The position numbers were made by a program, and so were the translations under genes. A DNA stretch of 30,283 bases from a virus: IMG/VR virus record IMGVR_UViG_3300033571_007817, positions 1-30,283 of that record. One strand, given 5' to 3'. Each line of letters starts with the position of its first letter. Positions within the stretch are counted from its first letter, which is position 1. The notes under the pieces were generated by a model. The model saw only the letters and a list, made by a program, of their open reading frames with translations, was not told the DNA's origin and searched no databases. This document shows positions 2,616-28,664 of this stretch, piece by piece.

Positions 2616-4024
2616 AGCGACTCGTCCACGTCGACATTGAAGGAAATGTAGTCGGCCTTTGGACCGAGGGCGTTGTGTTGTTCCTCAGGAATGACTGACA
2701 GCTTCCCAAAAACGGCAAAGCGTTCAGGGTACTCTGGGGTCGGGATCCAAAGGCATTTTAACGACGTTCTAGCCGTGTCAAAAATGCGCCGTAGGTTGGT
2801 GTAATCCGTCCCGTCATAAGCAATCGATCTAAACTCGACCCCAAGTCCGTACTTGATGGCCCGGTCGTTGGCGACGTTGGTAAATCCTTCCGTTTGAACT
2901 TTATCAGAAAAGTGCTTGGTAGAGCGCCGCACGGATTCTGTGATGTCGTTGGCCACCATCAAGATTGAGCTGCCAAAAACAATAGATCCAATTTGAAGAA
3001 AGTTATTGGTGTTTGTCTGATCATTAATGGAAAACCTCCAATAGCGATAAGACACGGTCGGAGCACTTGGAGCCACCCAGTAAACGTTGGCGGTCCGGTT
3101 GACTTCTAAGAAAAAGCTTTGGTAAACGGCAAACGTCGGAGAATTAGAGGCTTGGACTTCAACCGTGGCCGACCTGGTAAGGTTGTGACCAAGAATGGCA
3201 ATGGTGTCGACAAACACACCTTGGGACACCTGGGTGTCACAGGACAGCGCTACGATCTTTGATCCACCTGGATTTGAGCGCCAACACTGCTCGACGATGT
3301 CCGTATTTAAATTATTAGCTGAAAAGTCTCCGGTCGCTGTGCTGGTCGCCGTCCAGTTGCTACCGGTTGTTCCACGGGATGAAAAATCAAGCAACACACG
3401 AAGCCTCTTCGTGTTGTAGATGATCCTATTAACCTGATAAAGAATGGCTTTAAACTGAATCCGGTTAACCTGAAAACCGATCTCGTGCATTACATCAATG
3501 CGCCGCTTTACCTGCATCTTTTTCGTGTTTTTAATATCTGTGATAACGCGCTCAATTTCAAAATTATAAGCTTTACCTTTAGTTAAAATTGATTTCACCT
3601 GGAATGGAACCCAAGCCATTAAGCCGTTTGAGAGGTATCCCTCACCCATGTATTTACCGGCCAAATAGAATTGATTAGCGTTGATGGTGTGGAGAATACG
3701 ACCACGTTTAACTGAGAGCTTTAAAGACCTTGGCTTGATTGGGGAGAAAGACACCTGCATTAGTTTTGACTTTGCGTAGTCGTTTATAAACCTACGGACT
3801 TGCCACACAAAAGACCTGGACGAATCAATCTTTCGGAGTACCTGCAAAGACCTGACAACACCATCGGCGATGCTTCGAAGCACCTGAAATGGCTGGCCGA
3901 CTTCAACGTCGTTAATAACCCTCAGGATTTGCATATTTTTTGCGTAAGCTGCATCGGCTCCCAGGTAGCTTTCGCGGTTAAGATAAACGTCTTTTAAATA
4001 GCCATTATCTAAAATAAGACTCAA
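2612..4024 (-). CDS. Distal tail protein with QVxR repeats and galactose-binding-like domain
   Basis: 470 residues, starting at a TTG that overlaps the tape measure stop (TTGA) and has a GGGGGTG site just upstream; the residues MSLILDNGYLKD support this start. Residues about 15-215 are made of degenerate units of 14-17 residues carrying QVxRxI (MQILRVI, QVLRSI, QVLRKI, QVRRFI, then QVKRRI, QVNRIQ, QVNRII). Each block is preceded by a YL-rich stretch, so the region looks like two copies of a larger unit. Residues about 250-350 (VDTIAILGHNL, then YRYWRFSI) resemble the discoidin/galactose-binding beta-sandwich seen in phage tail tip proteins. By order and fold it is likely a distal tail or carbohydrate-contacting protein; the exact role is inference. 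Confidence 0.8.
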   Translation of the reverse strand: MSLILDNGYLKDVYLNRESYLGADAAYAKNMQILRVINDVEVGQPFQVLRSIADGVVRSLQVLRKIDSSRSFVWQVRRFINDYAKSKLMQVSFSPIKPRSLKLSVKRGRILHTINANQFYLAGKYMGEGYLSNGLMAWVPFQVKSILTKGKAYNFEIERVITDIKNTKKMQVKRRIDVMHEIGFQVNRIQFKAILYQVNRIIYNTKRLRVLLDFSSRGTTGSNWTATSTATGDFSANNLNTDIVEQCWRSNPGGSKIVALSCDTQVSQGVFVDTIAILGHNLTRSATVEVQASNSPTFAVYQSFFLEVNRTANVYWVAPSAPTVSYRYWRFSINDQTNTNNFLQIGSIVFGSSILMVANDITESVRRSTKHFSDKVQTEGFTNVANDRAIKYGLGVEFRSIAYDGTDYTNLRRIFDTARTSLKCLWIPTPEYPERFAVFGKLSVIPEEQHNALGPKADYISFNVDVDESL

Positions 4025-7000
4025 CGAACACCCCCAGACGACAAGAGTCGCTCACCGTCGAGCGAGGCCCTTCGGAGCTCCTCTTTAATGACCGACATAA
4101 GACGGTTCCTTACAAACGACTCGTCGATGCCACCACGCGCTTCAATGTTGATTTTAAACTCGTTATTGATCACAGACGATCCGTTTGGCGCTGATCCTGA
4201 GTTAAGTTTCCTCAGCGTGTCCATACCTAAAGATTTAGCCGCTCCAGCGCTAATGACGAACTCACCCGGGGCCAGCATGGCTGGAATGGTGTCGGTTCCA
4301 CGCGGCTGCATCAACATACCCTGTGATGCGTAGACTGGACCACCAGACGACCAAAATTTTTTCTTCCCCGTCAAAACGTTGCCGATATTTTCTGCGGCCT
4401 CGGAAATCAATCCGTCACCACCTCCACTTCCTCCTCCTGGAACTTTGAAGTTTGTTATTTTGTCGATAAGGTCCGTGATCGGTTTGATTAGGTCAGTCAA
4501 GCTTTTCGCGGCTTTTTCAAACAAATCTCCGATTGGTTTAAGCATCTCAACAGCGCCTTTAAATGCTTTGGCAAAAACATCGAAAATAGGTTGTAAAAGT
4601 TTTGCTATTTCCTCAAATATTTTTTTAGCGCCGTTAAAGACTTTGTCTAAGCCTTCAGCTAACCATCCAAAAACCGCTTTAAACGCGTTGACGATTGGCA
4701 TGATTATTCTGTCGTAAATCCAGCGCCAAGCCATAACAAGTTTTTCAATCGCCCATCCCATGCCGTCTTTAATGGAGTCAGCAATCTCGTTAGATTTTTT
4801 CGTTGCTTCGTCGTTCAACGACCCGCCTAGATCTTTTACGGAGAACACATCTGACGAGGATCCTGTCAATTTTTTTATACTGTCGATGGCCGTGTTGATC
4901 TCTTGGGTGTCTATTATCTTGACGCCCTTGAACATGTTGGAGATCGCTTTACCTAGTTCACTTATTCCTTTGATGATTCCCCTTATAATTGCTTTCGGCA
5001 ATTCAATCGCAATCATTTTAAATATACCGCTAATGATACGCGGGATTTGCGGTATTATTTTTTCTACAAACGCGATCACAATTAAAGGCAATGTTTGAAT
5101 TAAATGCTGTACCCAAGATGCGACAAATTCTGGAATCGCCTCGAGCAATTCCATGATAAGCTGTGGAATAGCTTCAAACAATGCGTTGAACGCTTGCGGC
5201 AAACCCTCAATCACAAATTTAATAATCATGCGAAGGATTTCTGGTATGGCTTTTAATAAGTTTGGAATTGCATTTGCTATGTAGTTTAAAATTGAGTTCA
5301 ATAAGTTTTGCAGACCCGAGACGATTTTATTTGGCAAATCCGTAAGAGAGTTAAACAGATTTGCAAGGTTATTTAACAATCTCGGGATGAAATCCACAAC
5401 GGCTTGAGCCATACCAATAAAGGCATCAACAGCTGACAATAAGCCTGTTACCATTCCGGCCGTTCCCGTTTGAAAGGCTTTCGTTATGTCTTTTGTTAAA
5501 CTCTTACCGGCCAGCACAGCCGCTTCAAACTCCTGTCCCGGCGCCTGTGATCTGTCAGAGTCGGCTTTTTGTCTTGTGGCGGCTTTTTTGTCGTCTAAAG
5601 CACCAACGAGATTTCTTTTTTGTTCGTCCGTATATTGCTTAGACAGCATTATCTTTTCTTTTTCTGCCTCTATTTGTCGCTCCGCAGCGGCAAGCTGGAG
5701 GTCAATGATTTCAAGCTGCGTCATTCCGCTTTTCTGGGCCTCAATGCCAAGGCGCTCGGTCTCTTTGACGATATCTTGCATGGCTGTACGGTAGGCTTCC
5801 AGGGCGGTTGGGTCGACAACTTTGCGGTCTTTAAAACCACCCTGAAGGCTCTTGGCTTGTGTTGCGGCTAGGTCTGCGGTAGTGCCGACGCCTTTGTAGG
5901 CGTCCTTCATTTCGTTGATTTTTTTGATGGTTGCTTCCATGCCGGCGCCCATCTTGATATCACCAAATTTCTCAGATGATTTGTCTTCAAGCTGCCCGGA
6001 CTTCCCGATAAGTTTTCCGCCTTCGCGAAGCATTCCAATGAATTGAAGAAATTTGCCCATGACCAAAGTTAACTTAGCAGCAAGCCATTCCAGGGATCCT
6101 ACAAATATCTTGAGACCGTTTTCATAAAGGAAATCAATTGCAGCGGCCACGCCCAAAATGGCGGCAGAGAATAAAGCCACTTTTAAAGCCACCAATGCAA
6201 ATGGGGCCGCAGCGGCCAGTGCGGCTGATGACAGTGAAATTAGCGTGGCTACAAGCTTAATAAATGGGGCCACAGCTGCTTCGATGAGGACCGGTTTAAA
6301 GACCGAAACCAAAGTTAAAACACCGATAGCCGCGGCACCGGCAGCGGCCGCAACGACTTTAAAATCAATGACGCTTAACGCCCTATAAACGCCTGCCACG
6401 GACGACCCAAAAGCTTTAAGGGCCCCACCCACCTCGTCCACCAAAACCCGTTTGATGGACCGAATGCCTTCGGCAAATTCCAAGAGAGCTGGTTTGATGT
6501 CTTCGATGGTTTGAAGGACGTTAAGATACATCTCGCGCTTGAACTCGGCTGTGCCCTTCATGTCAAACGCTACGGCCAAAACGTCGCCGATGTTTCTTTG
6601 TATTTCTTCTCTAAAGTTTTTGGCCTGCTCCGTGACGCCGCGATAAGACTTTGCTCCACTGGCTGCAAAGCCGTCATATTTTTTTGACAGCTGCTCAATG
6701 GCAGCCCCAGACATAAACGCCGAAGCACTCAAGTTTTTAAGAGATGGGTCTAAAATAATTAGCTCACGAGAACTTCCCTTGAGAGATGACAGAAGAGCTC
6801 TAAATGATTCGTTGACGTCGTTACCCGTTACGGCCGACAGGTTTTTAGCCGTCTGAACCATCTGCATCGCAGCGTCATCACCCACACCGGTGGCCTTGGC
6901 TAGGGCAAGCATCGTGTAGGCTTGCTCCTGCGTCATCGTCGTGGTCATTTCCATTTGATGGGAGAAGTCTTCAAACCGTTTGACCGAGGCTTCAGAAAAT

Positions 7001-24081: not shown

Positions 24082-24930
24082 TTAGAACTCTCGCGGGTAG
24101 AAAAACTCATACCATCGGTAAGACATAGGCGGGGCAATATAGTTGATGGTTGCATACTTGGCCAACATTCCCGCAGGCGCACAGACAAGCCAAATTCCAG
24201 TTCCCCAAGTGGCCACGTCACAGGAGATCGACACGCCCCAAAACGCCACGACACCGCTGAGCGGCACGAAATGTTTTTTGTATTCTGCCGGGCTAATAGC
24301 CTCATCGGGGATGGACTCAAAATTAAACGTCACAGGGATCGTAAAGTTTATGATTCTGATGTCTTCCAGGTGCGTGAACTCCATGATCTCAGGCCCAAGG
24401 CGCCGTGTGAGCTCTTGATCCAGGCGCACGAGATACTCCGACATGGGCGCGTAATCACCAATCTCACCGAGGCGACCACGAAAGAACACCATCATGGTGA
24501 CGCGGTTTTTAAACCGGGATTCATACTCGTCTCTGTAGAGCTTAGCCGTAGCGCGGTGCCCAATTTTTCTGAGCTGGTAAGAGGCCAAGGCCACCATGCG
24601 TTCAATAGACCGATCCACCATGGGGGCCAGGTCTAACTGGTCCCCCGTTTTAAGCGTCGCCTCAAACATCTCCTCCAACGGCTCGTCGTCTGGAGCTGTC
24701 TCCCACTCGTAGTTGTCGTCCATGTTGTCGTCGTAGTCTGGCTCGTCTTCGTAACCCGAGTCATACTCGTCCGGTACGTCCGACCACGATGTGTCCTCTT
24801 GGCCATCGTCTTCAGGCTCCAAGTCCTCATCGTGCTTGTCGGTTTGACCCCGATCGACCAGCGCATCCCGGTAATCTCCACAAGACGCGACGAGCAGGGC
24901 TATGCCCAAAGCAAGCTTTGATAGCTTCAT
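24082..24930 (-). CDS. Acidic lipoprotein, possible superinfection-exclusion or host-surface factor
   Basis: 282 residues. The N-terminus is a lipoprotein signal: basic MKLSK, hydrophobic ALGIALLVAS, and lipobox VASC with Cys17; +2 is Gly. About residues 30-92 are almost all Asp/Glu with scattered Tyr/Trp (a flexible acidic stalk). The rest is a folded domain with helices (RSIERMVALASYQLRKIGHR) and a hydrophobic C-terminus (VSISCDVATWGTGIWLVCAPA). The GGGGGGTG site precedes the ATG. It sits in an accessory slot between small early genes and the phosphoesterase. Phage lipoproteins often block receptors or DNA entry of competitors, but nothing here proves this; I do not recognise the domain. 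Confidence 0.82.
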   Translation of the reverse strand: MKLSKLALGIALLVASCGDYRDALVDRGQTDKHDEDLEPEDDGQEDTSWSDVPDEYDSGYEDEPDYDDNMDDNYEWETAPDDEPLEEMFEATLKTGDQLDLAPMVDRSIERMVALASYQLRKIGHRATAKLYRDEYESRFKNRVTMMVFFRGRLGEIGDYAPMSEYLVRLDQELTRRLGPEIMEFTHLEDIRIINFTIPVTFNFESIPDEAISPAEYKKHFVPLSGVVAFWGVSISCDVATWGTGIWLVCAPAGMLAKYATINYIAPPMSYRWYEFFYPREF

Positions 24931-26188: not shown

Positions 26189-26416
26189 TTATCCTTCGTC
26201 AAATAAAGCTTCGTAAGCCTCTACTTCTCGTACGATGTCATGATACTCATCCTTAGACAGATACAGCTTTGACAAGGCCGCATAGCCAACCACACGCCTA
26301 GCCGCCAACAACTCGGCTGCTAGAGAACGAATGAAACCGGCCGAAACAGCGACAGCCTCATCAGTTTCCGCATAACGAACCCAGTCAATAATCTCCTCAA
26401 CGTTAGCCCTGATCAT
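26189..26416 (-). CDS. Small acidic helical hypothetical protein
   Basis: 75 residues, MIRANVEEIIDWVRYAETDE onward, with helices AGFIRSLAAELLAARRVVG and DEYHDIVREVEAYEAL. Start at 26416 overlaps the end of the XRE gene; a longer reading from 26449 would overlap more and begins with an RRPRGR run that is a shadow of the regulator. No family recognised. Confidence 0.7.
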   Translation of the reverse strand: MIRANVEEIIDWVRYAETDEAVAVSAGFIRSLAAELLAARRVVGYAALSKLYLSKDEYHDIVREVEAYEALFDEG

Positions 26417-26714
26417 TGATCTGCCCCGTGGTCGACGCGTCACGACCATTGCGCTTTGACCTGTAGGTTTTAACCATGGTCGACACCTGCTCCTTGTGAC
26501 GCTTCATTCTTACCTTCACGGCTTTAATGGCCAACAGGTCGGACTCTAGCTTCAAGTGATGCGCGATCTCGTTAACGAGTTTCAACGATGGGATGCGTTT
26601 GTCGTTTTCAATGTCGCTCAGGTATGGCCTCGAGCAGTCAACGAGATTTGATAAGTCTTGAATTGTATAGTTTAATCTTTGGCGCCTTTGCTTGATGTAA
26701 CTTCCCAGTGTCAC
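26403..26714 (-). CDS. XRE-family transcription regulator
   Basis: 103 residues from a GTG with AGGAGG seven bases upstream. Begins TLGSYIKQRRQRLNYTIQDL; the helix-turn-helix is QDLSNLVDCSRPYLSDIEN followed by KRIPSLKLVNEIAHHL, a textbook HTH_3 domain. The C-terminal 40 residues are basic (KVRMKRHKEQ, RSKRNGRD). It may repress or activate the neighbouring small-gene operon. The same frame continues upstream without a stop to an ATG at 27047, so a longer form exists (see next entry). Short alone is a complete, ordinary regulator. Confidence 0.85.
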   Translation of the reverse strand: MTLGSYIKQRRQRLNYTIQDLSNLVDCSRPYLSDIENDKRIPSLKLVNEIAHHLKLESDLLAIKAVKVRMKRHKEQVSTMVKTYRSKRNGRDASTTGQINDQG

Positions 26715-27047
26715 TTGAACTCCTCCTGTTTGATGTTGGCACGTCATCATTAATTTTCTACAGCCGTTTGCTTTATTATCCTTAATGATTTCAACACTAG
26801 CCGGTACGCGCGGAGCCCACCGATTGCCTGCGGAAAAACTGTGGGTAGGTTCCTCGCGACCGTCAACCCACCCCCTCACGCCGGCACCAAAACGGCCGGC
26901 CAATTCAGCTCGAGGAAAAGTCGATCTAATCGCCGCGGCAAGGTTGCGTCCAAGCCGGTCTCTGGTCTTTCCGGTCAACTTCTCAAGGTCTCGCCAACCT
27001 GAGACCTTGTAGATTTTTGATTCACTCTTCACAAAGTAAACTGGCAT
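26403..27047 (-). CDS. Long in-frame form: N-terminal extension plus XRE domain
   Basis: Same stop as the XRE regulator, but from the ATG at 27047 (MPVYFVKSESKIYKVSGWRD), which has GGGGAG eight bases upstream. This gives 214 residues: an N-terminal region (about 1-80) with DLEKLTGKTRDRLGRNLAAA, which looks like a real helical protein, then a less structured linker and the XRE domain. No stop separates them. It could be one fusion protein, two proteins from two starts in one frame, or an upstream gene that lost its stop. I favour dual products because both starts have good ribosome sites. Confidence 0.55.
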   Translation of the reverse strand: MPVYFVKSESKIYKVSGWRDLEKLTGKTRDRLGRNLAAAIRSTFPRAELAGRFGAGVRGWVDGREEPTHSFSAGNRWAPRVPASVEIIKDNKANGCRKLMMTCQHQTGGVQVTLGSYIKQRRQRLNYTIQDLSNLVDCSRPYLSDIENDKRIPSLKLVNEIAHHLKLESDLLAIKAVKVRMKRHKEQVSTMVKTYRSKRNGRDASTTGQINDQG

Positions 27048-27144
27048 CTCTTGACTCCCCGCCAATCTTTTTAACCGCACCACATTTTTGGCAATAAATG
27101 CCTGTTTCCGTTGCTACGTCTTTTGAATCACAAAGCTCGCACAT
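27022..27144 (-). CDS. Zinc-ribbon micro-protein, 40 aa
   Basis: Forty codons, found by eye. It reads MCELCDSKDVATETGIYCQK then CGAVKKIGGESRDASLLCEE, that is CxxC followed by CxxC 13 residues later and a further Cys near the end: a zinc ribbon. GGGGGA lies about eight bases before the ATG. It overlaps the end of the membrane protein gene and the start of the next gene. Might bind nucleic acid or a partner protein. Confidence 0.68.
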   Translation of the reverse strand: MCELCDSKDVATETGIYCQKCGAVKKIGGESRDASLLCEE

Positions 27145-27341
27145 GATGACTTCCCCCTAAAATATCTGTCTAAAACTTGGCCCACAGCCAACAACGATAA
27201 AACCGGCCACAATAAAAAAGCCGCCAGCATCACCACCGTCGATAGCGATGCAAATAGAATCGGAATAATTAAGACCTCGGCCACCGTTTGAAACAAGCCC
27301 ACCTTGGCCTGCGGAAACTTAATGATTTTTGCCTGGGTCAT
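27114..27341 (-). CDS. Small membrane protein
   Basis: 75 residues from the ATG at 27341, which overlaps the upstream stop (ATGA). A basic soluble N-terminus (MTQAKIIKFPQAKVG) precedes one long or two short membrane helices (VLIIPILFASLSTVVML, AAFLLWPVLSLLAVG), then DRYFRGKS. No family recognised. The ATGA link shows the zinc-finger frame upstream is translated. Confidence 0.72.
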   Translation of the reverse strand: MTQAKIIKFPQAKVGLFQTVAEVLIIPILFASLSTVVMLAAFLLWPVLSLLAVGQVLDRYFRGKSSCASFVIQKT

Positions 27342-27703
27342 TTTAAAGTTCTTTCTTTGCATTTCTTTGAACACCACACGACGTCACCCTCATAAAGAGG
27401 GTATGGCCCAAAGCATGACTTCCACTTTGGCAACCAATTACATCCGGGGCACCGTCGGCTTTGAGCGATTGCTTTATAGTTTCGTCGCAGCTTGTCGGTG
27501 GGTGTTCCCTTGCCGTCGTAGGGAATGAAGTAAAAGTATTGGACAAACTCTCGGCCGGCTGATCCGGCGTCAGACACACATAGGTCGTCAGGCTGGCGAT
27601 CGGGTAGCCCCCGGTCTGAAGACACGTTAAAGGGACTGCCATAAGGGCGATGATCGTAAGAAGAATTCCGGTAATCATCCAAAAGTAAACCATTCGTTAT
27701 CAT
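27338..27703 (-). CDS. Putative zinc-binding small protein
   Basis: 121 residues. The C-terminal half has CPGCNWLPKWKSC then VVWCSKKCKE, a zinc-ribbon-like set of cysteines. The N-terminal half is polar and less protein-like. AGGGAGG lies six bases before the ATG, and the stop is coupled to the next gene by ATGA; both support this frame. A second frame runs through almost the same DNA (next entry). Function unknown. Confidence 0.62.
   Translation of the reverse strand: MITNGLLLDDYRNSSYDHRPYGSPFNVSSDRGLPDRQPDDLCVSDAGSAGREFVQYFYFIPYDGKGTPTDKLRRNYKAIAQSRRCPGCNWLPKWKSCFGPYPLYEGDVVWCSKKCKERTLK
27343..27678 (-). CDS. Overlapping ORF with N-terminal membrane helix
   Basis: 111 residues in a different frame over almost the same DNA as the zinc-binding gene. 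The ATG overlaps the stop of the upstream gene (ATGA). It begins MITGILLTIIALMAVPL, a good signal or membrane helix, then TTYVCLTPDQPAESLSN. The C-terminal half looks less natural, whereas the other frame's C-terminal half looks better. Either both frames are used, or the real protein switches frame by -1 in the middle. There is no classical slippery heptamer that I can see. Confidence 0.45.
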   Translation of the reverse strand: MITGILLTIIALMAVPLTCLQTGGYPIASLTTYVCLTPDQPAESLSNTFTSFPTTAREHPPTSCDETIKQSLKADGAPDVIGCQSGSHALGHTLFMRVTSCGVQRNAKKEL

Positions 27704-27983
27704 TGTGGTCCTCCCTTGATCGCACGTTGACTCCGTAAACGTCTACCGACCCATCGTGGTTCGGTTTCACCATAAAGCCGTCCCTCAACCGCTCGAGCAC
27801 CGCGTGGCTACAAAAAGCAAACTTGGGGTTCCTTTGAACCTCTGACTGAAATTTTCTAAAGCTATCCTCAAAAACATCGATTGCTCGCTGCATGTCTTTG
27901 TCCTTAAAAATCAAATCATAGTTAGCTCGATACCCATTAGAACTGGTCCACTTGGCATTGGTGTCGGCCTTCACAGACCTCAT
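27675..27983 (-). CDS. Hypothetical early protein
   Basis: 102 residues. The ATG at 27983 overlaps the upstream stop (ATGA), so this start is preferred to one 16 codons earlier. Helical, charged middle (DKDMQRAIDVFEDSFRKFQS) and a beta-like C-terminus (GSVDVYGVNVRSREDHND). No family recognised. Confidence 0.72.
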   Translation of the reverse strand: MRSVKADTNAKWTSSNGYRANYDLIFKDKDMQRAIDVFEDSFRKFQSEVQRNPKFAFCSHAVLERLRDGFMVKPNHDGSVDVYGVNVRSREDHNDNEWFTFG

Positions 27984-28186
27984 AAACTCAAATCTCTCTC
28001 GTTCAAAAAATCGTAAAGCTTTCCGCGGCATGCTTCGGCGTTAAAATCATTTGGGTTGCCGTGTTTGCAAATGCCCCTGAGCCATTCCGCATAGTCCCAC
28101 ATGGCCGAATAGAACGCGCCTGCGTTAAAATGAAGGGCATAGTCTTCTCGGTCCTCCGGCAAGTTAAATTCCAAAATAGCTTTCAT
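27980..28186 (-). CDS. Conserved-type small phage protein
   Basis: 68 residues from ATG at 28186 (MKAILEFNLPEDREDYALHF), with AAGGG upstream and an ATGA overlap with the lipopeptide stop. The opening, KAxLEFNLPEDREx, followed by an aromatic FYSAMWDYAEWLRGI, is familiar from many phage early regions as a protein of unknown function. Family recognised only by pattern. Confidence 0.75.
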   Translation of the reverse strand: MKAILEFNLPEDREDYALHFNAGAFYSAMWDYAEWLRGICKHGNPNDFNAEACRGKLYDFLNERDLSL

Positions 28187-28266
28187 ATCCAAAAACCCTT
28201 CAACTCATCACAAGCCAGCACGCCAATACCGACAAAGAAAATTAGAGCGATCAATATTTTTTTCAC
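28183..28266 (-). CDS. 27-residue lipopeptide
   Basis: Twenty-seven codons, found by eye. GTG start with GAGG five bases upstream; its GTGA overlaps the HNH gene stop, and its own stop overlaps the next ATG (ATGA). N-terminus MKKILIALIFFVGIGVLAC is a full lipoprotein signal with lipobox VLAC; the mature peptide would be only C-DELKGFWI. +2 is Asp, which in enterobacteria keeps lipoproteins in the inner membrane. Resembles in layout lysis lipoproteins or entericidins, but the similarity is only architectural. Confidence 0.72.
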   Translation of the reverse strand: MKKILIALIFFVGIGVLACDELKGFWI

Positions 28267-28664
28267 ATGTACCTCGTTAGACTAATGATCTTGTCTTCAA
28301 GCAATTCGATGATTTCGTCAAACTCCATGTCGGTAAATTCGTCGGTTTCTTGCTCGGTGATGGGATTAAACAAAACATCCCGCAGGTAGATCAGCATTTG
28401 GGCACATATTTGAGTCCTTGGATCGACATTGTTGGTCTCCCAAAATTCCCGCTCCCCAATGCTGTGGAGCTCCATGTGCTCTTCATGCGTCAACGGCACC
28501 GTTCTAAAGTCACTTGGCTTTAATCCGACGCCGCCCCAACCAAAACATCTCACATGGTGGGCCACTACATACTGCGTGCTTTGAGACACCGCGGATTGTT
28601 GCGAGCGCACCCATTCCATATATTTTTCACTTCTTGGCGTTTTTCTTTTTCTTAGAGGAGTCAT
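28263..28664 (-). CDS. Ref/DUF968-like HNH nuclease
   Basis: 133 residues from ATG at 28664 (MTPLRKRKTPRSEKYMEWVRS). VAHHVRCFGWGGVGLKPSD, VPLTHEEHMELHSIG and FWETNNVDP match the pattern of DUF968/Ref-type HNH proteins (HH...KxSD...PL...H..LH..G...F). The Cys pair usually before the HH is replaced by Ser (QSAVSQS), a departure from consensus. P1 Ref is a RecA-dependent nuclease and other family members act in recombination. It overlaps the upstream HTH gene by 38 bases; an alternative ATG at 28619 would start at MEWVRS. It lies between an HTH gene and the lipopeptide. Confidence 0.82.
   Translation of the reverse strand: MTPLRKRKTPRSEKYMEWVRSQQSAVSQSTQYVVAHHVRCFGWGGVGLKPSDFRTVPLTHEEHMELHSIGEREFWETNNVDPRTQICAQMLIYLRDVLFNPITEQETDEFTDMEFDEIIELLEDKIISLTRYM

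Follow-up and report, generated by a model that had tools for sequence, protein, structure and literature searches.

Does a 27-codon open reading frame (ORF) lying between two phage genes encode a lipopeptide, another kind of membrane peptide, or nothing at all? The question arises in IMG/VR record IMGVR_UViG_3300033571_007817, a virus record of 30,283 bases (here referred to as the window, meaning its whole length) with phage head, portal, and terminase genes on the minus strand. The ORF, MKKILIALIFFVGIGVLACDELKGFWI, is located at 28183 to 28266 on the minus strand, and its translation is MKKILIALIFFVGIGVLAC-DELKGFWI, with Lys at residues 2 and 3 and Cys at residue 19. Based on comparisons with related phages, we conclude with a probability of about 0.6 that the ORF is a genuine phage gene under translational coupling, that its product is a tiny membrane peptide, and that it would be the short form of a fast-evolving family of 27 to 42 residues encoded after an HNH nuclease gene.

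The ORF and its coupling are intact in two relatives

The GTG start codon (28266-28264) overlaps the TGA stop codon of the upstream HNH gene (28265-28263), and a Shine-Dalgarno-like GAGG (28272-28275) is located inside the 3' end of the HNH gene with a 5-nt spacer to the GTG. At the other end, the TGA stop codon (28185-28183) overlaps the ATG (28186-28184) of a conserved gene for a 68-aa protein to form ATGA, and the likely ribosome-binding site of this gene lies inside the ORF. This arrangement was confirmed, on the minus strand, as originally predicted. The overlap with the 68-aa gene is weak evidence by itself because a TGA in that frame comes with every ATGA start.

Two other viral contigs, L002 and L003, hold the corresponding gene block with an intact small ORF. 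In L002, in which the HNH and TerL proteins are 65% and 82% identical, respectively, to those of the window, a 42-codon ORF (MRLALKIVVAPVWVLGMALMAVGTYMVLASEWVCEDLRTFWS; 5393-5521) directly follows the HNH gene, overlaps both of its neighbors, and is followed by the 68-aa gene. In L003 (HNH, 52% identity; TerL, 72%), the gene order is HNH, a 46-codon ORF, a 36-codon ORF (MLIIFIAPLWIMALVLVSMGEIIIEGCERVCPELGE; 3713-3823), a gene for a helix-turn-helix (HTH) protein, and the 68-aa gene, and the 36-codon ORF again overlaps both of its neighbors. Thus, overlap with both neighbors and placement after the HNH/DUF968 gene are found in all three phages, directly in the window and L002 and with the 46-codon ORF in between in L003. 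All three peptides contain a hydrophobic segment, which comprises only ~16 residues in the window copy, and behind it a short tail that includes Cys-x-x-Leu. Kyte-Doolittle values of the hydrophobic cores over 15 residues are 2.3 to 3.1 in the family. That the ORF is simply an open frame that arose by chance in a short gap is very unlikely: while chance alone readily leaves 27 codons open and is expected to yield lipobox-like ORFs, intact and similar hydrophobic ORFs are present at the matching place in both relatives.

Using the L002 peptide as the query, tblastn recovered the L003 copy (E=3e-6, relative to the candidate stretches). Scans of viral contigs based on the HNH protein, TerL, a 118-aa gene, the 68-aa gene, a DNA pattern for the FW/ATGA junction, and peptide alignment identified the ORF in L002 and L003 only; the junction pattern, besides the L002 contig, gave two matches, both unrelated, and no genome contigs with both TerL and HNH were found. 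A profile of the three members recovered each member in place, which in this self-inclusive search serves as a positive control only, and had no match in 36 other phage records. Among annotated phages, tblastn gave no match with the window peptide and a single chance-level match (E=8) with the L002 peptide. The window copy matches no Pfam or PHROG family, and the L002 copy has a weak match (E=0.024) to phrog_4743, a family of unknown function. In two further phage contigs, L009 and L010, the 68-aa gene is preceded by an ORF of 51 aa that has a hydrophobic helix at its C-terminal end (3839-3994, plus strand), another tiny membrane protein at this position. We rejected it as a homologue, as it did not match the family profile in a search in which the positive control worked. 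ORFs preceding the 68-aa gene in other phages showed no resemblance to this 51-aa ORF.

Homology and selection

Alignment scores were re-optimized against composition-preserving shuffles, including shuffles that kept helix and tail compositions apart. The alignment of the window and L002 peptides had a score of 37.5 (z 4.5-6.0; P 0-0.0006), and that of the L002 and L003 peptides had a score of 61 (z 6.7-7.8). In both pairs, protein similarity also exceeded that expected from random substitution at the observed DNA identities (window-L002, 59% identity, P 0.00025; L002-L003, 52% identity, P 0.00005), and 73% of the neutral simulations gained a stop codon. The shared Cys is encoded by TGT in the window (28210-28212) and by the aligned TGC in L002 and L003, and the following Leu by TTG in the window and CTG in L002; because these codons differ between the window and L002, the match at this place is not simple DNA conservation. 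What exceeds chance is the conserved small hydrophobic ORF at the matching place in two relatives. Given the support for homology and for selection at the protein level from both the shuffling and the substitution test, and because the frame and the coupling are intact in both relatives holding the region, the 27-codon ORF is very probably a real gene that is unannotated and normally missed.

Several points weigh against reading the window ORF as a coupled membrane-peptide gene of this family. The family comprises three sequences only, and the window and L003 peptides by themselves have no detectable similarity (P 0.43 in the shuffle test), so that the window copy joins the family through L002. 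The substitution test was run at the codon level on the protein-optimized alignment, which biases it somewhat in favor of protein-level similarity. Moreover, the tail overlaps the ribosome-binding region of the 68-aa gene, which could account for part of the identity at FW, and this part is for that reason weaker evidence of homology. Finally, with ~16 residues, the core of the window copy is on the short side for a membrane-spanning helix, so that this copy might instead represent a signal peptide or the remnant of a decaying gene.

Could the ORF instead matter mainly as a translational relay from the HNH gene to the 68-aa gene, with a dispensable peptide? Its start and stop codons overlap the neighboring genes, and the likely ribosome-binding site of the 68-aa gene lies within it, as such a relay would have it. 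However, amino acid similarity is higher than the neutral expectation, and the L003 peptide is still recognizable although the next gene there is a different one, encoding the HTH protein. Because the peptide persists in front of a different gene, we consider a pure relay clearly improbable.

The window copy is probably a shortened form

The L002 and L003 copies, as read from sequence and hydropathy, have a hydrophobic segment of full length that looks like a helix of ~23 residues; the acidic tail behind it contains Cys-x-x-Leu, with the Cys ~12 residues further on than in the window. In the alignment of the window and L002 peptides, the first half of the helix pairs KILIALIFFVGIGVLA with KIVVAPVWVLGMALMA, and the tail pairs CDELKGFWI with CEDLRTFWS. 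Between the helix part and the tail, 12 residues present in L002 are missing from the window copy, with some uncertainty as to where exactly this gap lies. As judged from this alignment, the apparent loss of ~12 codons moves the shared Cys next to a shortened core, with an Ala directly in front of it, creating V-L-A-C. When the TerL tree is rooted with three relatives of 45% identity, L003 falls outside the group of the window, L002/L004, and L005 (support 0.92). Because the L003 copy is full length, the long form is more likely to be ancestral, and the loss to have occurred on the branch of the window phage, provided that the peptide shares the history of TerL.

It is possible, although doubtful, that the window phage makes a true lipoprotein, in which the helix anchor was exchanged for a lipid anchor upon the 12-codon loss. 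Lgt would then modify Cys19 and Lsp would cleave before it to leave the 9-residue C-DELKGFWI in the inner membrane; in an E. coli-like host, the Asp at position +2 would prevent export by Lol. The peptide agrees with a PROSITE PS51257-like rule, with Cys at residue 19 and Lys at residues 2 and 3; its ~16-residue core has the length of a signal peptide rather than of a helix, and with a helix too short to cross the membrane, a lipid would be a sensible substitute anchor. A secreted 282-aa protein of the window (24082-24930, minus strand), encoded just before phosphoesterase-like and terminase genes, likewise has a lipobox (LVASC), while its homologues at L002:8488-9192, L003:6927-7685, and L004:771-1478 have signal-peptidase-I-like signals, and changes of this type, therefore, happen in this phage group.

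On the other hand, the description of the signal as perfect in the original prediction was overstated. Under a stricter, G+LPP-style rule, VLAC does not qualify, owing to the Leu at −2, which departs from the consensus [LVI][ASTVI][GAS]C (PMC6139136); deviating lipoboxes have been reported, one of which was experimentally verified (PMC6139136). Three PS51257-like lipobox ORFs of 20 to 40 aa were observed in the window, compared with about 1.15 expected per dinucleotide-shuffled window. Since chance alone would give about one such ORF per window, the lipobox by itself lacks significance. Also, a 9-residue mature lipopeptide would be far shorter than that of Rz1 (40 residues; PMC6139136). Neither the L002 nor the L003 copy has a lipobox, and the VLAC context is specific to the window. 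Thus, the part of the original prediction that concerned an overlooked coupled gene holds in close relatives, in which frame and coupling are conserved, but the lipobox as a general property does not, and lipidation is possible only as a change on the branch of the window phage. The data for the window copy are equally compatible with lipidation, a shortened helix, or a decaying copy. We regard as improbable the more specific scenario in which the transmembrane-helix anchor of an orthologous peptide was turned into a lipid anchor by in-frame loss of ~12 codons, in parallel to the difference in the 282-aa protein; this would give one of the smallest phage-encoded lipopeptides.

Proposed mechanism and comparison with known systems

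For the coupled membrane peptide that we favor, we suggest that ribosomes re-initiate at the HNH stop codon to make the peptide. The hydrophobic N-terminal segment would insert with the N-terminus inside, as suggested by the Lys-rich start and the acidic tail, and the short C-terminal tail with Cys and Leu would face outward from the inner membrane. In the window phage, the loss of ~12 codons between the helix core and the Cys would have resulted in a shorter helix and a lipobox-like site. Its most likely role would be to modulate the host, through its tail, as one of the small membrane peptides encoded in the pre-structural gene block; we have low confidence in this step, which involves a host process.

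The closest parallel is with small single-helix membrane proteins from coupled short phage ORFs, which are likewise tiny, hydrophobic, overlapping with their neighbors, and easily skipped by annotation. No named family of these proteins matches the window copy. It fits best among the tiny phage membrane proteins in general, as a new member without a name. Lambda Rz1-type o-spanins also combine a very short phage lipoprotein-type signal with overlapping genes. In lysis, Rz1 acts together with the i-spanin Rz; mature Rz1 has 40 residues, 10 of them Pro (PMC6139136). We rejected an o-spanin by position, as the neighbors of the window ORF encode the HNH/DUF968 nuclease and the early-type 68-aa MKAILEF protein and are not recognizable lysis genes; a role in lysis was rejected for the same lack of lysis neighbors. 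The superinfection-exclusion lipoprotein Ltp of phage TP-J34 is phage encoded and lipid anchored, as had been proposed for the window peptide, but the 9-residue mature peptide is too short to hold an Ltp-type domain (PMC3952083). With no room for any domain, a role in exclusion was rejected. Overall, we found nothing in support of the lysis-like, membrane-stress, or superinfection-related role suggested originally.

Neighboring genes and other observations

The upstream HNH endonuclease/DUF968 gene (28263-28664, minus strand) matches PF06147 (E=9e-12) and the HNH endonuclease family phrog_96 (E=1e-10). The downstream gene (27980-28186, minus strand) encodes the 68-aa protein of the MKAILEF...LPED family (MKAILEFNLPED...), which is widespread in phages, with at least 451 tblastn-confirmed relatives in viral contigs, and has no Pfam or PHROG match.

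Two window ORFs in different frames on the minus strand (27338-27703 and 27343-27693) overlap almost completely, and each is about 44 to 45% identical to its counterpart in the L002 pair. In L003, the conserved parts of this pair, a hydrophobic VPLxC peptide and a Cys-rich CPGCNW domain, stand apart; possibly, these are formerly separate genes that came to overlap. A 226-aa protein of the window (26403-27083, minus strand) matches two separate L003 genes, one for an N-terminal domain and one for an HTH_3 domain (2588-2851 and 3823-4125), which suggests fusion or splitting.

A search of 50,697 annotated phage records at E 0.01 gave no match to the 282-aa protein, and no Pfam family matched it significantly. 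Its homologue in the distantly related phage L009 (1278-2111) has the lipobox NAAC and is directly preceded, with an ATGA overlap, by a gene for a papain-family cysteine protease with a likely signal peptide (L009:214-1281, plus strand; PF00112, E=2e-41). A papain-family protease looks unusual in a phage.

Implications

Standard gene callers would probably miss this family of coupled membrane peptides of 27 to 42 residues. The comparison of the window copy with the long form illustrates that a deletion can produce a lipobox, and that a lipobox found in a single genome does not have to characterize the whole family. If lipidation does occur in the window copy, nature would offer here a clean example of a lipid taking over from a helix as the membrane anchor.
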